A DNA stretch of 30,070 bases, taken from the IMG/VR virus record IMGVR_UViG_3300049846_001124, positions 1 through 30,070 of that record. One strand, given 5' to 3'. A program made the translations under genes and the position numbers. A model generated the notes under the pieces. It saw only the letters and a list, made by a program, of their open reading frames with translations. It was not told the DNA's origin and searched no databases. Source of the stretch: a virus. Below are positions 20,063 through 29,558 of the stretch, in pieces (position 1 is the first letter of the stretch; every line of letters starts with the position of its first letter).

Positions 20063-20226
20063 CCCATCCATCCCCGGGCGCGATGGCGTTCGATTCGTGC
20101 GGGCTTGGTGTGATTGGAGAGCGCGGCAATGCGTTGGCGTTGGGCCTGGCTGACATAACCCCCCGCGATGCCGGAGATTAAAAACAGCAGTTCCACAGCT
20201 TCCAGCAGGGCGTCTTCGTCGGTCAT
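20059..20226 (-). CDS. Small hypothetical protein (55 aa) after TerL
   Basis: 55 aa from ATG 20226, in an ATGA overlap with the TerL stop, and ending in an ATGA overlap with the next small gene. The first half is acidic then hydrophobic (TDEDALLEAVELLFLISGIA). The second is strongly basic (AQRQRIAALSNHTKPARIER and HRARGWMG). The last residues GWMG repeat the TerL C-terminus, because both ends are encoded by the same 13-bp sequence. No family is recognised. The acidic-hydrophobic-basic layout could bind a partner protein or nucleic acid. Confidence 0.6.
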   Translation of the reverse strand: MTDEDALLEAVELLFLISGIAGGYVSQAQRQRIAALSNHTKPARIERHRARGWMG

Positions 20227-21530
20227 CCCATCCAGCCCCCCGCCCCAATGTGGTGACGCACAGCCGGACGCGATAGAACCCTGGGTTCTTCGTAAGCGAC
20301 GCAGCCGGTGCCGAAGGCGTCCGCGCTATGGCTCGACCAATCGTGGTTCGGACCGAGACCGATCTCGCGCTTCTCGTCTTTCTTTTCGTGATACCAACCA
20401 AGCGCCTGTAGTCCGGTGGCGCACGCCGTTTCATCGAACCGCATCCGACCGAACAGTTCGCGGCCCTTCTCGACCCGCTGCATTGCAGCACCCTTCCCCT
20501 GGTTGGGGATGACCGTCACGGTGTAGCCAGCGCCCTCGAATGCCTTGCGGTATGAGGTATCGAATACCTTGTCCTGCTGGTCGCCGTCGTGCGGCAGGTA
20601 GATCGTCGCCTTATCAGGCGTGTAGCCTTGCGAGCGCAGCCAGTTCAGGTGCGCAGCCAGCGGCTGCCCCTGCACCTCGTAGTGGTTGACCCAGCGTATC
20701 TCCAAGCAGATCCACTGCGCGGCCCAGAACACGAAATTGTCAGCCTTCGCCCCCGTCCCGCCGATGTCCGCGAACAGGCGAATGACCATGTGCGGGTCTT
20801 CCGGGACGAATCCGATGCGACCGCCCTCCTTCGCCGCCAGAAGGTGTGGGCCGTAGTAAGCCCCCTCCTGCAACGACAGATACTCGCCCTCCCAAATGTG
20901 GCCATACAAATGTGGCCTCTCAAGCTTGTCCTTTTGCCGCTGGCGTTCGAGGATCGCCGGAAACCATGGGTTGTCGCGGTGGTTCATCTCCACGATTTTC
21001 GTGCGCGGGTCGGTGCTGTTGCGAAACCGCTTGTTAGTCGCCGACTTCTCGCGCTCCGGGTTCCATGTAAGCCAGAGTTCGCTGTCTTCCTCACGAAGCG
21101 TCGGGATAAGCTTGACCCAAGCTTCCTCGATTACGTTCTCGGCTTCCTCGATCCACGCTAGCAGAATCCGGGACGTTGACTTGATGCTGTCGATATTACG
21201 GTCAAGGCCGGAGAACACGTATTTGATCCGGCCGGACCGGGTGCGGATATAGTTTTCGCCGATGTCGAAATGAGCCGCCAGCCAGGGCTCCGAACGAATA
21301 GCTGCCTTGACTTCCTCCATTGAGGAATCCGCCAGGCTGTTCTGAAACTGTCTGCCACAAAGGATGATGCCTTCGCGGCCTTCCTGATCCCATTTGTAGG
21401 CGCGAACCGCCGTCATCTTGGCGAAGGTCCGGCTCTTTGCCGAGCCGCGTCCGCCGTGCGACCCTCTTACATCCGCCTCGCCTTCGAAGACCGGAACAAG
21501 CTTGTCCGGTATCTTGATGCTAGCTTTCAC
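20223..21530 (-). CDS. terL: Terminase large subunit (packaging ATPase/nuclease)
   Basis: 435 aa, GTG start at 21530. The ATPase domain has a Walker-A-like GGRGSAKS (26-33), a Walker B segment ILLAWIEEAE (122-131) with its catalytic acid, and a coupling motif LWLTWNP near 152-158. The RNase-H-like nuclease domain shows three acidic centres: FADIGG (Asp255), LPHDGDQQDK (Asp315) and SSHSADAFG (Asp404). All motifs for motor and DNA cleavage appear present. The length fits compact TerL proteins. It overlaps the TerS stop by 11 bp and the 55-aa gene by 4 bp. It powers DNA translocation into the procapsid through the portal encoded downstream. Confidence 0.93.
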   Translation of the reverse strand: MKASIKIPDKLVPVFEGEADVRGSHGGRGSAKSRTFAKMTAVRAYKWDQEGREGIILCGRQFQNSLADSSMEEVKAAIRSEPWLAAHFDIGENYIRTRSGRIKYVFSGLDRNIDSIKSTSRILLAWIEEAENVIEEAWVKLIPTLREEDSELWLTWNPEREKSATNKRFRNSTDPRTKIVEMNHRDNPWFPAILERQRQKDKLERPHLYGHIWEGEYLSLQEGAYYGPHLLAAKEGGRIGFVPEDPHMVIRLFADIGGTGAKADNFVFWAAQWICLEIRWVNHYEVQGQPLAAHLNWLRSQGYTPDKATIYLPHDGDQQDKVFDTSYRKAFEGAGYTVTVIPNQGKGAAMQRVEKGRELFGRMRFDETACATGLQALGWYHEKKDEKREIGLGPNHDWSSHSADAFGTGCVAYEEPRVLSRPAVRHHIGAGGWMG

Positions 21531-21810: not shown

Positions 21811-22032
21811 ATGATTTCCTTTGATATGTTTTTCACAGGGCCAAATTATCGCCCGCCTCAGTCACGCACTGCACTGTGCCACATCGCCCCCGTTAATGAG
21901 GCGCTCCGTGTTTGATCGGCGGTGTCTGTCGTGAGAGAGGCGGGCTGGCGCGGAGAGGGACGCGCCGTGGGAAAGCCTTGGTGGCGCAATTCGCCACTAT
22001 GGGTTTTTCCCTTATCACTCCCGTAAAAAAAG
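21811..22032. other. Structured intergenic region between the GIY-YIG gene and TerS
   Basis: This 222-bp gap holds no convincing ORF. It contains three hairpins: 21947-21966 (GGCGCG/CGCGCC), 21981-21997 (GTGGCG/CGCCAC) and 22001-22011 (GGG/CCC). A near-palindromic GCAC/GTGC cluster lies at about 21866-21879. GATAAT, a -10-like hexamer on the minus strand, is at 21845-21850 without a clear -35. A TTTTTCACA sequence at 21829-21837 fits the DnaA-box consensus TTWTNCACA. Late promoter, packaging site and antitermination target are all possible. Confidence 0.5.
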
Positions 22033-22662
22033 TCAAGATGCCTTGGTAAGCACCCAAAATGGATCATTGTTGTAGCCGAGACTTGGTTCTCCGGCTCCGA
22101 GGCCAAGAGCCTTTTCAAGCTTTGCGTGGTTGCGAAGAAATAAACCGCTATTGGCCAACGGAAGGCCGCTTTCGCCAGCCAGAACCGCAATCAATGCGGC
22201 TGCATCCTCGCTCTTGAAGTTGATCCATTCGCCAGCAAGGCGCTTACCCAATTTCACACATACCCTCAGCGCGAATCCCTCAAGGCCAAATGCTGCGCGC
22301 TTGGGAAGCCAGAACAGGTAGCGATAGGAAAGCTGTTCGTGTGAGCCGCATTGCAAACCCTCCATCCTCTTGATCGGGTTGTGGGTCACGCCAATTTTGC
22401 TTGCTGTCTTGGATGCGTTCTCGATCACGTAAAGGGCATGATCCAGTTGCTGGGAAAGCGATTTGGTTCCTATCCTTTCGATTGAAGCCTTGCGGTTTTC
22501 TGTCCTGTCGCCGCAGGCTTTGACAAGCGCATCCTCTTCGATCAGTTTCAGGTTTAGACGTTCAACCTCGACAACAATCTCGCGATCCTCGAAACAGAAA
22601 ACAGTCGGGACGCTAATGGTTGGCAAGGCCGTCGAATCTAGTGCATATTGGGCGTCAGCCAT
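22033..22662 (-). CDS. GIY-YIG-like nuclease (T5orf172/Mug113 type)
   Basis: 209 aa from ATG 22662, which has an AGAGG site about 10 bases upstream. The open frame reaches TTG 22761, but that part contains a large hairpin and no ribosome site. The C-terminal half carries a GIY-YIG-type pattern: ALYVIENASKTASKIGVTHN (KIGVT for the YIG strand), NPIKRMEGLQCGSHEQL, a candidate catalytic Glu in AFGLEGFALR, and GEWINF near the end. This is the T5orf172/Mug113 variant. The N-terminal 80 residues are an unassigned helical domain. Base composition is visibly less G+C-rich than its neighbours, with structured non-coding DNA on both sides. A homing-type or accessory nuclease acquired by transfer is the likely explanation. 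Confidence 0.65.
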   Translation of the reverse strand: MADAQYALDSTALPTISVPTVFCFEDREIVVEVERLNLKLIEEDALVKACGDRTENRKASIERIGTKSLSQQLDHALYVIENASKTASKIGVTHNPIKRMEGLQCGSHEQLSYRYLFWLPKRAAFGLEGFALRVCVKLGKRLAGEWINFKSEDAAALIAVLAGESGLPLANSGLFLRNHAKLEKALGLGAGEPSLGYNNDPFWVLTKAS

Positions 22663-22688
22663 GTCGAGCTTACCTCTCGTTGTGGTCA

Positions 22689-22729
22689 GGGCCGGGTGAC
22701 GTTGGCGCGTCATTCCGGCCCGATTTTTG
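22689..22729 (+). terminator. Strong hairpin with plus-strand T-tract in the GIY-YIG leader
   Basis: GGGCCGG pairs with CCGGCCC and, inside it, TGACG pairs with CGTCA around a 6-base loop. Read on the plus strand it is followed by GA and five T, the form of an intrinsic terminator. On the minus strand it would be a stable 5'-leader hairpin of the GIY-YIG mRNA with an A-tract before it and no U-tract after it. Confidence 0.55.
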
Positions 22730-22753
22730 TAGCATAAGTGGCCACGAAAACAA
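22726..22753 (-). promoter_or_regulatory. Weak candidate promoter for the GIY-YIG gene
   Basis: On the minus strand TTGTTT and TACAAA are separated by 16 bases, directly after the 175-aa gene. Both match the sigma-70 consensus only partly. It is proposed mainly because the gene has its own leader and looks like an independently acquired unit. Confidence 0.25.
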
Positions 22754-22757
22754 GTGA

Positions 22758-23285
22758 TCAAGCCCCAATTGCAGCGGCCAACCTATCGCCGGCAAAGCGT
22801 ATCTCGATCATCGCGGCCTCGTGAAACTTGCGGCGCGGCTCGAACCATTTGACTATCGTTCGCCCGATCTCCTTGGTCCGCATGACCGAGCCGGATTGCT
22901 GCATAGCCCATTGCGAGACAGTCACGTCATCCACCGCCACGGCGCGAGCGATGGCGCGGAGACTGCCCAGCTCGCGTTCAAGCCTGCCAAGTTCGACCGC
23001 GACCCTGACCAGCGCCGGGGGATGCCCGTTGCCGTTGCTTCGGCCATGAAGGGCTTTGTCCAGGCTGTCGCGCATCGGCGATCGATCCTCGGCAATGGCG
23101 ATGTCCCGGTATCGCGCCAAGCCGTCGAACTGGCGGCGGTTGATCTTCCCCGTATCGAACAGCGTGTCGATCACCGGCTTGCGGCGATAGGCCAGCCCGG
23201 CGCGCTCGAAGGTGCCGGTGGCGAATTGCTCCTCGGTCGGTTCGATCACCGTGACGGGTGCGGGCTTCTTCTTGCGCTTGGCCAT
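22758..23285 (-). CDS. Unknown protein (175 aa) at the late-regulator position
   Basis: 175 aa with a Lys-rich N-terminus (MAKRKKKPAPVTVIEP), a helical centre (FERAGLAYRRKPVIDTLFDT and INRRQFDGLARYRDIAIAED) and a likely helix-turn-helix near 112-128 (AIARAVAVDDVTVSQWAMQQ). A basic C-terminal helix follows. The general form resembles DUF6456-like phage proteins, but I am not sure of that family. It is the last gene of the early block and precedes the GIY-YIG gene and terminases, the place where lambda-type phages carry Q-like late activators. A DNA-binding regulatory role is therefore inference from position and the HTH-like segment. Confidence 0.5.
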   Translation of the reverse strand: MAKRKKKPAPVTVIEPTEEQFATGTFERAGLAYRRKPVIDTLFDTGKINRRQFDGLARYRDIAIAEDRSPMRDSLDKALHGRSNGNGHPPALVRVAVELGRLERELGSLRAIARAVAVDDVTVSQWAMQQSGSVMRTKEIGRTIVKWFEPRRKFHEAAMIEIRFAGDRLAAAIGA

Positions 23286-23299
23286 GTGCGATCCCTTGT

Positions 23300-23836
23300 T
23301 TAGGCGCGGAGACTGTCGGCTGCCTGGCGCTTGATGGCTTCGATTTCATCGAGGGTCGGTTGCCATGCTTTATCCAAAGCCGGGGGTGGCGGACGACGGG
23401 CGGCCATTTCCTGCGAGTGCAACTGGCTCGCTCGCGCCTTGCGCATCGTGTCGGCATCGTGCCGCCGCCATCCCGAGAGAATATCCAGGCACTCCGCGAT
23501 TGTCGGGAACCAGCGGCATTGCCGCGTGGCTTGGTCAACGAGATAGGAGATTGCCGATTGCGGCCAATTACCGAGCTGACGAGTGTAGGCTTCCACGAAC
23601 AGTTCGCCAGTGATTTCGTCGCTGTTCTGGCGGGGCAGGACGGCCAGCATCATTCTCAACGATTGCAGGAGGAATCCTTCATTGCATGGGGGCAGCGATG
23701 GCAAGGGGGCGTCGATTATCCGGCGCAACATCGCCAATTGCGAGTCGTCCAGCCTCTCCGGCAGGCTCTCCAAGTCCAAGTCTGCGATCAAGCGCAGCGG
23801 CAATCCCGTTGCGGTGTTCGGTGTGGTTTCGTCCAT
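23300..23836 (-). CDS. Putative replication protein, P-like helicase loader
   Basis: 178 aa from ATG 23836, with AGGA about 7 bases upstream. The longer frame to 23908 runs deeper into the preceding gene without a better site. The core has LRMMLAVLPRQNSDEITGEL followed by FVEAYTRQLGNWPQSAI, and the block CRWFPTIAECLDILSGW. A cluster of Trp/Phe-Pro-Thr-x-x-Glu after a helical repeat recalls phage replisome/loader proteins such as lambda P relatives. Position directly after the O-like initiator supports this. No Walker motif is visible, so it is not a DnaC-type ATPase. Its first 158 bases overlap the O-like gene in another frame. The family call is tentative. Confidence 0.5.
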   Translation of the reverse strand: MDETTPNTATGLPLRLIADLDLESLPERLDDSQLAMLRRIIDAPLPSLPPCNEGFLLQSLRMMLAVLPRQNSDEITGELFVEAYTRQLGNWPQSAISYLVDQATRQCRWFPTIAECLDILSGWRRHDADTMRKARASQLHSQEMAARRPPPPALDKAWQPTLDEIEAIKRQAADSLRA

Positions 23837-24524
23837 TGGTATGTCCTGTATTTCTGGCCCGCTCGGCCTTGAGCGCGGCGGGAACCCATTCGACGGGCTG
23901 GGAAACATCGTCCGGGCAGCGCGAAAGAACTGTCAGGACTTCGCTGTCAGTGTAGGATTTACGCCAGCGTCCAATGATCGAACGGGCCGAGCGATTATCG
24001 TGCCCGGCTGCCATGAGGATCGAGATACCCGAATCGAAGATGGCTTTCGTAACATCGGACGCGGAAAGTTTCGGCGGTTCGCCGCCCGATGCGTTAGCAT
24101 CGGAACCCTCTGTTCTCTGTCTCTGTCTATGGTCCGTTTCAGAAACGTTTCGTAACGTTTCACTATCGTTACACGGTAGTGTTTCTGCGGTTTTTTTGGC
24201 GCGGTGCCGCCTTACTCTTTCCGCGCTGTGATCGCCGAGATACTGGCGGCGGTTCCACGAGACCACATGAGAGTCGCGCACGATGCCAGTGGCCGCGAAC
24301 GCTGCAACGAGCGCTTCGATAACGGCGAGAGGCTCGCACAACGCGGCTGCGATGCGGAGTGGTGGAAGGTCTATGCGGCCACTGTCGTTGATCGTGGCAG
24401 CGTTCTCTAGGTGAAGGTGCCAGGCGGCGACGGCGACCGAGCGTGAGCAGCCAGCAACCAATGCGGCCTCTGCCAGCTTGGGGTCCGTTACAGTCCCCTC
24501 ATAGGCTCGATACCAGCGGCTCAC
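23679..24524 (-). CDS. O-like phage replication initiator
   Basis: 281 aa, GTG start at 24524 in a GTGA overlap with the DnaA-domain gene. The N-terminal 110 residues form a winged-helix-type domain: MSRWYRAYEGTVTDPKLAEA, an Ala/Leu-rich helical core, then SWNRRQYLGDHSAERVRRHR. This opening and the RRQY..D.SAERVRRHR block are typical of phage replisome organisers. A polar linker (about 113-150) follows, encoded by the iteron-like array at 24135-24185. A C-terminal domain (about 153-235) may contact the loader. An origin inside the initiator gene is known from lambda O. The end overlaps the P-like gene by 158 bp. Replication initiation is the likely role, but no experimental homologue is identified. 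Confidence 0.6.
   Translation of the reverse strand: MSRWYRAYEGTVTDPKLAEAALVAGCSRSVAVAAWHLHLENAATINDSGRIDLPPLRIAAALCEPLAVIEALVAAFAATGIVRDSHVVSWNRRQYLGDHSAERVRRHRAKKTAETLPCNDSETLRNVSETDHRQRQRTEGSDANASGGEPPKLSASDVTKAIFDSGISILMAAGHDNRSARSIIGRWRKSYTDSEVLTVLSRCPDDVSQPVEWVPAALKAERARNTGHTNGRNHTEHRNGIAAALDRRLGLGEPAGEAGRLAIGDVAPDNRRPLAIAAPMQ
24135..24185. repeat. Iteron-like array, candidate replication origin
   Basis: On the plus strand the hexamer CGTTTC occurs at 24135-24140, 24146-24151 and 24156-24161. A CGTTAC variant lies at 24167-24172 and a GTGTTTC at about 24179-24185. The spacing is 10-11 bp, one helical turn. The middle copies are extended to AACGTTTC. A T-tract (TTTTTTT) lies just after at 24191-24197. 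It falls in the linker-coding part of the O-like gene. Confidence 0.5.
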
Positions 24525-24847
24525 GCAACTTCCCGCGCCAAAAGTTCGGCATAGACCTGGGCCGCGCGCGGGCTTGCCTTTAGGTATTCAGGCAACTTGC
24601 CCAATGAGTGCATTACGGTTGTGTGGTCGCGATTGACGATCCGGCCTATGACCCCGGTTGAATGGCCGCGCTCGCGCAGGACGCCTATCAACACCGCCCT
24701 CGCGATGACCGATTGCGGCGAACGGCATGTGCCGCTCATGGTTTCTGGCGAGACAAGCAATTCCCGCGCAATGTGGTCGCGCAGATCGCAGGCTGGCATC
24801 AACTTCCGCGACGGCGGGCGATAGTGTGCGGGCCAAAGAGGTTTCAT
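24521..24847 (-). CDS. Stand-alone DnaA domain IV-like DNA-binding protein
   Basis: 108 aa. Residues about 45-92 match DnaA domain IV, the DNA-binding part of the replication initiator: SVIARAVLIGVLRERGHSTG, then VIGRIVNRDHTTVMHSLGKL. The RDHTTV motif is the DnaA signature that contacts the DnaA box. No AAA+ domain or Walker motif is present, so the protein is far shorter than DnaA. It sits directly before the O-like initiator (GTGA overlap) and after the DUF1064 gene (ATGA overlap). It might bind host or phage DnaA boxes to regulate replication or compete with host DnaA. The fold assignment is firm, the role is inference. Confidence 0.7.
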   Translation of the reverse strand: MKPLWPAHYRPPSRKLMPACDLRDHIARELLVSPETMSGTCRSPQSVIARAVLIGVLRERGHSTGVIGRIVNRDHTTVMHSLGKLPEYLKASPRAAQVYAELLAREVA

Positions 24848-25197
24848 TTCACCACCCTCAGTTCGATGTCGGGATAACAGGCGCGGAACAGCGCGGCGCG
24901 AAGCGGGAAGTCGCGAACGACAATTCCCTTCACATCCTCGACCACGACATTGCCGTGTTCGATGTAGGAGAAGTCCGGGCGGTATCTGGCGCGATGGCCG
25001 TTGCTCATGTAGATCGGACGATCACCGCACTTCAGTTCATAGGTCGGCTCGATCACAAGTCCGTCGATTGCGCCCGCATGGAACAACATGTGCAGCTCGC
25101 CGCAACGACTGGCTTCGCGCTTGCTGGCGTGCTTGTGACCGCGCCCACACACGGTGGTAGTTGCCCCGTATTTGTTCCGGTTGCCCCTGCCCGCCAT
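24844..25197 (-). CDS. DUF1064 protein, putative PD-(D/E)XK nuclease
   Basis: 117 aa from ATG 25197, which has a very strong GGAGG site. The longer frame to 25227 overlaps the preceding gene. Family features of DUF1064 are visible: NKYGATTTV near the start, HASKREASRCGEL (SKxEA with the first acidic residue), a strand IEPTYELK, ARYRPDFSYIEHG (Asp of the nuclease core) and VVVEDVKGIV (Glu-x-x-Lys), with a final basic helix. This layout matches small PD-(D/E)XK proteins thought to act as junction resolvases or repair nucleases in phage replication modules. Its neighbours (NinB-like, HNH-like and DnaA-domain proteins) fit. The exact substrate is unknown. Confidence 0.75.
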   Translation of the reverse strand: MAGRGNRNKYGATTTVCGRGHKHASKREASRCGELHMLFHAGAIDGLVIEPTYELKCGDRPIYMSNGHRARYRPDFSYIEHGNVVVEDVKGIVVRDFPLRAALFRACYPDIELRVVK

Positions 25198-25199
25198 TT

Positions 25200-25364
25200 C
25201 TAGGCCCCTCCGAACATCGCACGGCACGCCTTGGCCCGGTTGCGCACCTCGGTGCTGAAACCTCGCCGCGCGGCCTCGCTACGTGCCTGGCGGATCTGCT
25301 TGCGGGCGCGGAGGCTGGCGGCGATCTCGCGCTTGAGCATATAAAGGCGGACAAGGCGCATCAT
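25200..25364 (-). CDS. Small basic protein (54 aa)
   Basis: 54 aa from ATG 25364 in an ATGA overlap with the NinB-like gene. ATG 25361 follows directly as an alternative. The sequence is very basic and helical: MMRLVRLYMLKREIAASLRA, then RKQIRQARSEAARRGFSTEV and a tail with one Cys. No family is recognised. The charge pattern suggests nucleic-acid binding, and its place among recombination genes is compatible. Junction geometry and the strong ribosome site for the next gene, which lies in its end, support it as coding. Confidence 0.6.
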   Translation of the reverse strand: MMRLVRLYMLKREIAASLRARKQIRQARSEAARRGFSTEVRNRAKACRAMFGGA

Positions 25365-28088: not shown

Positions 28089-28504
28089 TAGGCAGCCCTC
28101 GCCGGAAACTCGACCACGGTGGCGCACAGGTCGGCGTGCTCGTTCGGGCCGATCCGTTCGCCGCACTCGCTGTCCTTGCGGTGCGCGGCCATCTTCTTGC
28201 CGACGTAGGTCTCGGCCCACTCGCACAGCGCGTCGTGATCGATGTTGTCGGGCACCTCGACGATGCTGCGGCCCTCGGGGAGCAACAGGCTCAACAGGTA
28301 ATCCGGGACGACATCGACCAGCGCGAACAACACCGCGACGGGCATCATCGTCTCGCCCTTGGCGTAGTTGCACACGCTGTCGTAATCGATCCCGGCGTCG
28401 AGGCTGATCGCCTTGCGGGTCAGGCCGTGGTCGCGCTCGGCAAGCCGGAACATCCGGGCCTGCGCGTCCTTGGTGCGTTGGATGATCTTCGGTTCAAGCC
28501 GCAT
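28088..28504 (-). CDS. Helix-turn-helix regulatory protein (138 aa)
   Basis: 138 aa from ATG 28504 with a GGGAAG-type site. The longer frame to 28573 lies inside the methyltransferase gene. Residues about 8-50 form an HTH of the repressor type: TKDAQARMFRLAERDHGLTR, then KAISLDAGIDYDSVCNYAKG. This is followed by ETMMPVAVLFALVDVVPDYL and LSLLLPEGRSIVEVPD, a dimerisation-like helical part. I know this pattern from HTH proteins of alphaproteobacterial phages, but cannot name a family. An early gene regulator (CII/Cro-like) is inferred. It overlaps the methyltransferase end by 11 bp. Confidence 0.6.
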   Translation of the reverse strand: MRLEPKIIQRTKDAQARMFRLAERDHGLTRKAISLDAGIDYDSVCNYAKGETMMPVAVLFALVDVVPDYLLSLLLPEGRSIVEVPDNIDHDALCEWAETYVGKKMAAHRKDSECGERIGPNEHADLCATVVEFPARAA

Positions 28505-29558
28505 GATCTGCTTCCCGTGGCTGGCTATGTGTTGCGGAATGAAGGAGGAAAGCCGAACCGACCGGGCGACCATTGAGGCCGTCCCGGTCGCGCGACACCG
28601 AGCCGGGCTCGGAAAGGGTGCGGCTGTGGCTATCGGGCCAGTAGACCATGCCGATATGGCGGCTGAGCTGGTCCGGTATCTTGGCGATCATGGCGGAGGC
28701 GGCTTTGCGGGCCTTCGACTTGGAGCCGTGCCGCCGGCAGGTCGAAGTCGGATCGGAAAACCAATCTCCGCCAATTTTAACGCCGGTTTCCTGGTCCACG
28801 CCGTGAAGCCGCTCTACCCCGCAATCCCTGGACGTGAAGCGCGCGCCCTTGCCGGGGTCGGTGCGGCGGACACTTGCGGTCTGGAAACTGCCGCCTTGCC
28901 CGTCAAACCGGAACGACGGCACCTTGACCGCCGATCGACCGACCGGCGTCGGCATCAACGCCGGAACATCTCCCCAAAGGTGGAACGACCCGAAACTGCC
29001 CCGGCTGCGCCCAACCCACGGAATCGCGCCGCGCACGTTCTCGACCACCATCGGGATATGCCGACCGGCAGCCTCGCTTGCCTCGCGCTGGATGCGGAAG
29101 CAGGCGTTGAACAGTGCCAGTTCCTTGGCCAACCGTGCCGGATCGGCGCGGACTTCGGCAGCCAGCGCCTTGGCGCGGGACCACGGCATCGCGGTGTAGC
29201 TGAAGAACTGGCATGGCGGGCTGGCGACGATCAGGGCCGCGTCTTTGAAGATCGCGCCGTGGATCGTCAGAACATCCTGAAGAACAAGCTCGGCGGGATA
29301 TCGCAGCAACTTTGTGCGGGGTTTTGCGTCGGGGCCTTCGCAGCCGAGCGAGATCGCACAACCCGCCGTCCATCCCCGCTTGGTGACAGGGCGGGTTCCT
29401 TTCGAACCCTCCGCAGGCGCAGAAATATCATCTGGAACCCAATACTCGTGCGCCTCGATGTCATAGCCGACCACCCGGTAGCCCAGCGCGAGCAGGCCAT
29501 CCGTCCAGCCACCAAGGCCGCAGAAAAGGTCGATGGCGAGCGGGCGCGTGTACTGCAC
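28494..29558 (-). CDS. DNA cytosine-C5 methyltransferase (orphan phage type)
   Basis: 354 aa, GTG start at 29558 with a very strong GGGAGG site. Motif I is AIDLFCGLGGWTDGL (8-22), which binds S-adenosylmethionine. Motif IV is ASPPCQFFSYT with catalytic Cys116. Motif VI is PMVVENVRGA (Glu171). The C-terminal part contains SKARKAASAMIAKIPDQLSR, typical of compact phage enzymes. No companion restriction endonuclease is present, so it is an orphan methylase, most likely protecting phage DNA from host restriction or marking its own DNA. The specificity region is poorly defined and the target site cannot be read from sequence. It is expressed early, right after two small genes and the repressor. 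Confidence 0.88.
   Translation of the reverse strand: MQYTRPLAIDLFCGLGGWTDGLLALGYRVVGYDIEAHEYWVPDDISAPAEGSKGTRPVTKRGWTAGCAISLGCEGPDAKPRTKLLRYPAELVLQDVLTIHGAIFKDAALIVASPPCQFFSYTAMPWSRAKALAAEVRADPARLAKELALFNACFRIQREASEAAGRHIPMVVENVRGAIPWVGRSRGSFGSFHLWGDVPALMPTPVGRSAVKVPSFRFDGQGGSFQTASVRRTDPGKGARFTSRDCGVERLHGVDQETGVKIGGDWFSDPTSTCRRHGSKSKARKAASAMIAKIPDQLSRHIGMVYWPDSHSRTLSEPGSVSRDRDGLNGRPVGSAFLLHSATHSQPREADHAA

Follow-up and report, generated by a model that had tools for sequence, protein, structure and literature searches.

The open reading frame at positions 24521-24847 of the window (the whole 30,070-nucleotide stretch analysed) is a genuine gene, and nearly all of its product is DnaA domain IV. 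The 108-residue protein appears to be an accessory regulator that binds DNA and occupies sites, not an initiator. We tentatively favour the view that this free-standing domain acts at DnaA-box-like sites of the host, competing with host DnaA or mimicking it.

A stand-alone DnaA domain IV gene in a replication operon

The 30,070-base IMG/VR record represents a P22-like phage, as judged by its portal and coat protein. The reading frame extends on the minus strand from an ATG at 24847, which is preceded by GAGG, to a stop codon at 24521. Its ATG overlaps the stop codon of the upstream DUF1064 gene, and its own stop codon the GTG of the next gene downstream, here termed rep, so that it sits tightly packed within an operon. 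The surrounding features are as follows.

24521..24847, minus strand: stand-alone DnaA domain IV (Bac_DnaA_C) gene, 108 aa (Pfam, AlphaFold2, Foldseek)
24599..24778, minus strand: Bac_DnaA_C domain proper, residues 24-83 (Pfam)
24844..25227, minus strand: DUF1064/Holliday-junction-resolvase-like protein, directly upstream of the domain IV gene (PF06356, E=4e-13; phrog_190, E=6e-22)
23679..24524, minus strand: putative phage replication initiator (rep), 281 aa, directly downstream with a 4-base overlap (PHROG 3729, E=0.001, weak)
23300..23908, minus strand: 202-aa protein following rep, at a possible position of a helicase loader (a protein of related locus L094 is 29% identical)
20223..21530, minus strand: terminase large subunit, TerL (PF04466, E=1e-26)

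No family match in Pfam or PHROG was obtained for the 202-aa protein. SSB and ERF genes (Pfam), the DUF1064/resolvase-like gene and the weak PHROG match to a replication initiation protein bear out the placement of the domain IV gene in a replication module, as suggested by the initial annotation.

The Pfam profile Bac_DnaA_C (PF08299) matches the 108-aa protein with 41.6 bits (E=1.2e-10), above the gathering cutoff of 31.5, and matches nothing else in the record. In contrast to this, the full-length DnaA model TIGR00362 reaches 33.4 bits compared with a cutoff of 343.9, and aligns through its C-terminal part only; neither an AAA+ domain III nor a domain I was detected in the protein by Pfam or TIGR00362. 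The AlphaFold2 model, built from 46 phage sequences, consists of six helices (pLDDT 92.9, pTM 0.82). On searching the PDB with Foldseek, the best six matches to this model were all DnaA, led by 3pvp and 1j1v, in which domain IV is bound to DNA (query TM 0.70-0.71, target TM 0.78-0.80). The profile built from 47 relatives likewise retrieved DnaA chains only, the best being 1j1v (E=3e-31). A different fold, the structural outcome by which the initial annotation would have been refuted, was thus not observed. The recognition helix RDHTTVMH occupies residues 73-80 and contains the RDHTTV signature reported earlier. Profile, fold and context therefore confirm the proposal that this is a stand-alone DnaA domain IV without AAA+ module.

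DnaA-box contacts and candidate target sites

Using E. coli DnaA as numbering reference (as in PMC9638019 and general knowledge), R42, R50, D74, H75, T76, T77 and H80 of the phage protein align with R399, R407, D433, H434, T435, T436 and H439. Altogether, the E. coli residues R399, S400, R407, R432, D433, H434, T435, T436, V437, H439 and K443 are kept, and Q408, L422, P423 and R442 are replaced by A51, T64, G65 and Gly, respectively. R50 does not vary among the relatives; conservation is at least 90% for R42, R73, H75, T76 and T77. The first set of 42 relatives was gathered largely by means of the RDHTTVMH pattern, so that helix conservation in this set partly reflects the selection. In the second set of 13 proteins, collected almost entirely via TerL, the position of R399 is Arg or Lys in 13/13 and R407 is present in 13/13, T435 in 11/13, D433 in 8/13 and H439 in 7/13. 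Scaffold and both arginines are thus maintained, while the base readout drifts. A D433H class with the helix RHHTTVLHG is common in diverse phages, in a set found partly via the helix pattern; those encoded in L161-L183 make up a second group of free-standing phage domain IV proteins, which presumably bind a target other than the DnaA box. Given the changes at Q408, L422 and P423, the loss of D433 and H439 in relatives and the D433H class, the window protein may recognise something other than a DnaA box.

The initial annotation had also pointed to a DnaA-box match before the small terminase gene.

21829..21837, plus strand: TTTTTCACA, fitting the DnaA-box consensus TTWTNCACA (sequence match)

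The match is indeed present, some 19 bases ahead of the presumed start codon of TerS, but lends no support: TTWTNCACA occurs once in the window compared with 0.77 expected, and at least once in 53 of 100 shuffles. With one mismatch allowed there are 18 occurrences compared with 19.7 expected. We therefore rejected TTTTTCACA as a meaningful DnaA box, its presence being explained by chance frequency. Enrichment was equally lacking across 48 non-redundant loci with a DnaA domain IV gene (32 compared with 39 expected; 9 compared with 8.5 within 1.5 kb of the gene). The stricter pattern TTWTCCACA gave a weak excess within 1.5 kb (5 compared with 2.0 expected, four patterns having been tried), which is at most a hint of phage-borne sites. 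In a published scan of alphaproteobacterial phages, DnaA sites displayed no positional asymmetry (PMC9437464).

Host sites are the likeliest targets, since most residues contacting the DnaA box are retained in the recognition helix and boxes are not in excess in the phage genome. The parts required for ATP binding, oligomerisation, DNA melting and helicase recruitment are absent from the protein, whose architecture suits it to DNA binding and to little else. Most likely, its mode of action is the occupancy of DNA sites and not the initiation of replication; site occupancy is the only mode that is well supported. From the sequence we infer an affinity for DnaA boxes of the TTATNCACA type. On the host chromosome, the predicted targets are sites resembling DnaA boxes, at oriC and at DnaA-controlled promoters, where the protein would compete with host DnaA or mimic its binding during infection. 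Competition of this kind would fit the retained contact residues. That the protein is a single-domain DnaA decoy, which would occupy host oriC and DnaA-regulated promoters, block or retime host replication and need no phage site, we consider rather unlikely.

Gene neighbourhoods, putative origin and alternative roles

With TerL as the marker for collecting related phages, stand-alone DnaA_C proteins were found in 10 of the 45 viral records with a related TerL, mostly long ones. In L072 and L073, whose TerL is 82% identical, the DUF1064 gene is followed by the domain IV gene as in the window; in L077 the two are adjacent in reversed order. A DnaB helicase module fills the region in L074 and L148, and domain IV is absent. 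DnaB_C is encoded by 6 of the 45 records, one of them with a sub-cutoff match, and domain IV by none of these six; mutual exclusion was nevertheless rejected, as this zero overlap rests on too few cases for significance. The closest relative in the first IMG/VR search was at most 47% identical over 51 aa, except for one match of 54-55% over ~30 aa. An N-terminal KPLWP motif is common to the window and L077 only, and a search with the L077 protein returned its own contig only. Across 46 domain IV loci, the neighbours include RusA/DUF1064 resolvases, O-like initiators, HNH nucleases and helicases, as well as NusG/antiterminator family matches. Some loci lie beside Mu Gam, MuB and GemA of Mu-like transposable phages, so no single function at a phage origin can account for all proteins of this kind.

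Several further genes were observed in these regions. Between the replication module and TerS, the window encodes a 175-aa protein (22758-23285, minus strand) with 48-51% identity to proteins of L050-L052, 37% identity to gp59 of Pseudanabaena phage Pam1 and a weak Cro/YdaS-like helix-turn-helix signal; it is possibly a late regulator. Its assignment to GafZ/DUF6456 was discarded, being a by-eye likeness without profile support. The position before TerS is taken by a T5orf172/MUG113-like protein in the window (22033-22761, weak match) and by a protein that is NusG-like by eye in L072, L073, L074 and L148. A 354-aa protein (28494-29558, minus strand) resembles DNA methyltransferases, with partial C5-methylase matches only, around residues 86-122, and is possibly a divergent member.

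It is also possible, though open to doubt, that the protein is a phage transcription regulator with a DnaA-type helix-turn-helix like that of GafY or the GafA N terminus, which would bind a motif of its own in early or late promoters and activate or repress them. In Rhodobacter, the gene transfer agent activator GafA has a DnaA-like N-terminal DNA-binding domain that is needed for promoter activation, and a GafA binding site lies upstream of TerS (PMC9638019). In Caulobacter, sigma70 is contacted by GafY, and GafZ acts as an antiterminator (PMC11150451). A separate DnaA_C gene immediately precedes the DUF6456 gene in 7 of the 8 genomes where DUF6456 was matched significantly, implying that single-domain transcription factors of this type exist in likely hosts. 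The helix drift in related phages and the occurrence beside MuB, Gam and GemA would suit a generic regulator as well. However, the seven DUF6456-linked proteins carry RDRTTV or RERTTV in place of RDHTTV, the DUF6456 partner is absent from the record, and the NusG-like proteins before TerS described above also argue against this role. The chromosomal stand-alone DnaA_C genes preceding DUF6456 (gafA/gafZ) in the alphaproteobacterial loci L150-L155 and L157 share the H434R helix RDRTTV, and this substitution may serve as a simple signature separating GafY-type from DnaA-type helices.

The third role to be weighed places the protein at the phage's own origin, for which the rep gene offers a candidate.

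24132..24172, minus strand: iteron-like cluster in rep with GAAACG-type units and core GAAACGTTTCTGNAACG; putative phage origin (sequence)

The minus-strand sequence of the cluster is GTGTAACGATAGTGAAACGTTACGAAACGTTTCTGAAACGG. Four GAAACG matches fall within 60 bp, a density reached in 0 of 300 Markov simulations, with the motif chosen post hoc and palindromic overlaps counted; under a stricter, non-overlapping 6-mer clustering score the cluster does not rise above shuffles. The case for it is made by the recurrence of its 17-bp core. GAAACGTTTCTGNAACG is also present in L062, L149 and L180, all with domain IV, and is found exactly in 94 IMG/VR contigs. In ~21 of these, several near-identical, it lies in a BLAST-detectable rep relative, and in further contigs inside an open reading frame with an RNVSET-type linker; many of the 94 contigs have it within replication-initiator frames whose linkers read RNVSET...TDTDT. 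The conserved VSET peptide may account for part of this DNA conservation, and some of the 94 matches, located in unrelated frames, may be due to chance. In L073, L161 and L164, the rep genes harbour a different array, GGGACA x5. The rep product is 30% identical to the 'putative replication protein O' of Cyanophage Cy-LDV1 (E=1e-4); it gave neither a Pfam hit nor a match in the viral-contig protein search, and its single-sequence AlphaFold model (pLDDT 43) is unusable. An intragenic origin of the lambda O type provides the analogy. The phage's own origin is more likely the iteron-like array inside rep, and the GAAACGTTTCTGNAACG cluster is probably a widely shared intragenic phage origin.

An accessory factor that binds near the rep iterons and assists replisome assembly by the initiator or a helicase loader would match the overlap of the domain IV gene with rep, its position in the replication module and the repeated occurrence of rep relatives near domain IV genes (L149, L161, L164, L165, L202, L221 and L257). 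The 10 domain IV and 6 DnaB records among the 45 TerL relatives, which do not overlap, point the same way without being significant. The putative origin, however, contains no DnaA box, and domain IV is present in only 13 of the 94 GAAACGTTTCTGNAACG loci, many of them partial, so that the origin seems independent of it; moreover, similar proteins exist in Mu-like phages, which replicate by transposition. These observations make such a role unlikely and weaken the earlier suggestion that the protein guides the phage initiator. Finally, a generic helix-turn-helix merely resembling DnaA, as might be read from below-cutoff HTH_38 matches and from a single-sequence PDB search that gave DnaA at E=0.32 only, is highly improbable and largely refuted by the DnaA-only results of the PDB profile and of the top six Foldseek matches, together with the conserved equivalents of R399 and R407.

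Comparison with known systems

Occupancy of host sites remains our preferred, tentative reading. In many phages a bare DnaA DNA-binding domain is annotated as a replication initiator, though it lacks the initiator parts. Deciding between action at host DnaA sites and regulation of phage transcription would correct this widespread annotation, and could reveal a simple phage means of controlling host replication. The literature searched yielded no work on the function of a free-standing domain IV from phages, nor any binding data for the present protein.

With domain IV of bacterial DnaA (E. coli 1J1V, M. tuberculosis 3PVP) the phage protein has in common the fold and the seven aligned contact positions, from R399 to H439. 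It differs from bacterial DnaA by the lack of domains I-III, by the exchange of Q408, L422 and P423 and by being one residue shorter between helices. GafY and the N-terminal domain of GafA from gene transfer agents are likewise single DnaA-like DNA-binding modules, in an alphaproteobacterial, phage-derived context. The GafY-type helix is distinguished from that of the window protein by H434R, and no HMM match to the DUF6456 partner (GafZ/GafA C-terminal; PF20057) was obtained in the whole record. The window protein falls outside the GafY-type group but, by analogy, may work like GafY.

Among phages, the putative DnaA protein of Microcystis phage Mae-JY35 (XAI96573.1) is a DnaA_C protein encoded between replication genes and terminase, with a TerL 58% identical to that of the window; at 161 aa it has a longer N-terminal part than the window protein. 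The proteins of uncultured Caudovirales phages listed in UniProt as 'Chromosomal replication initiator, DnaA C-terminal' are also stand-alone domains IV, mostly of ~80-200 aa, and account for most of the named top matches in a BFVD fold search with our model. PHROG 27829, 'DnaA-like replication initiation protein', matches 6 of the 47 alignment members, whereas the window protein itself matches no PHROG. The window protein adds a new, divergent member to a kind of phage protein, the stand-alone DnaA domain IV, for which UniProt and PHROGs already hold annotations.
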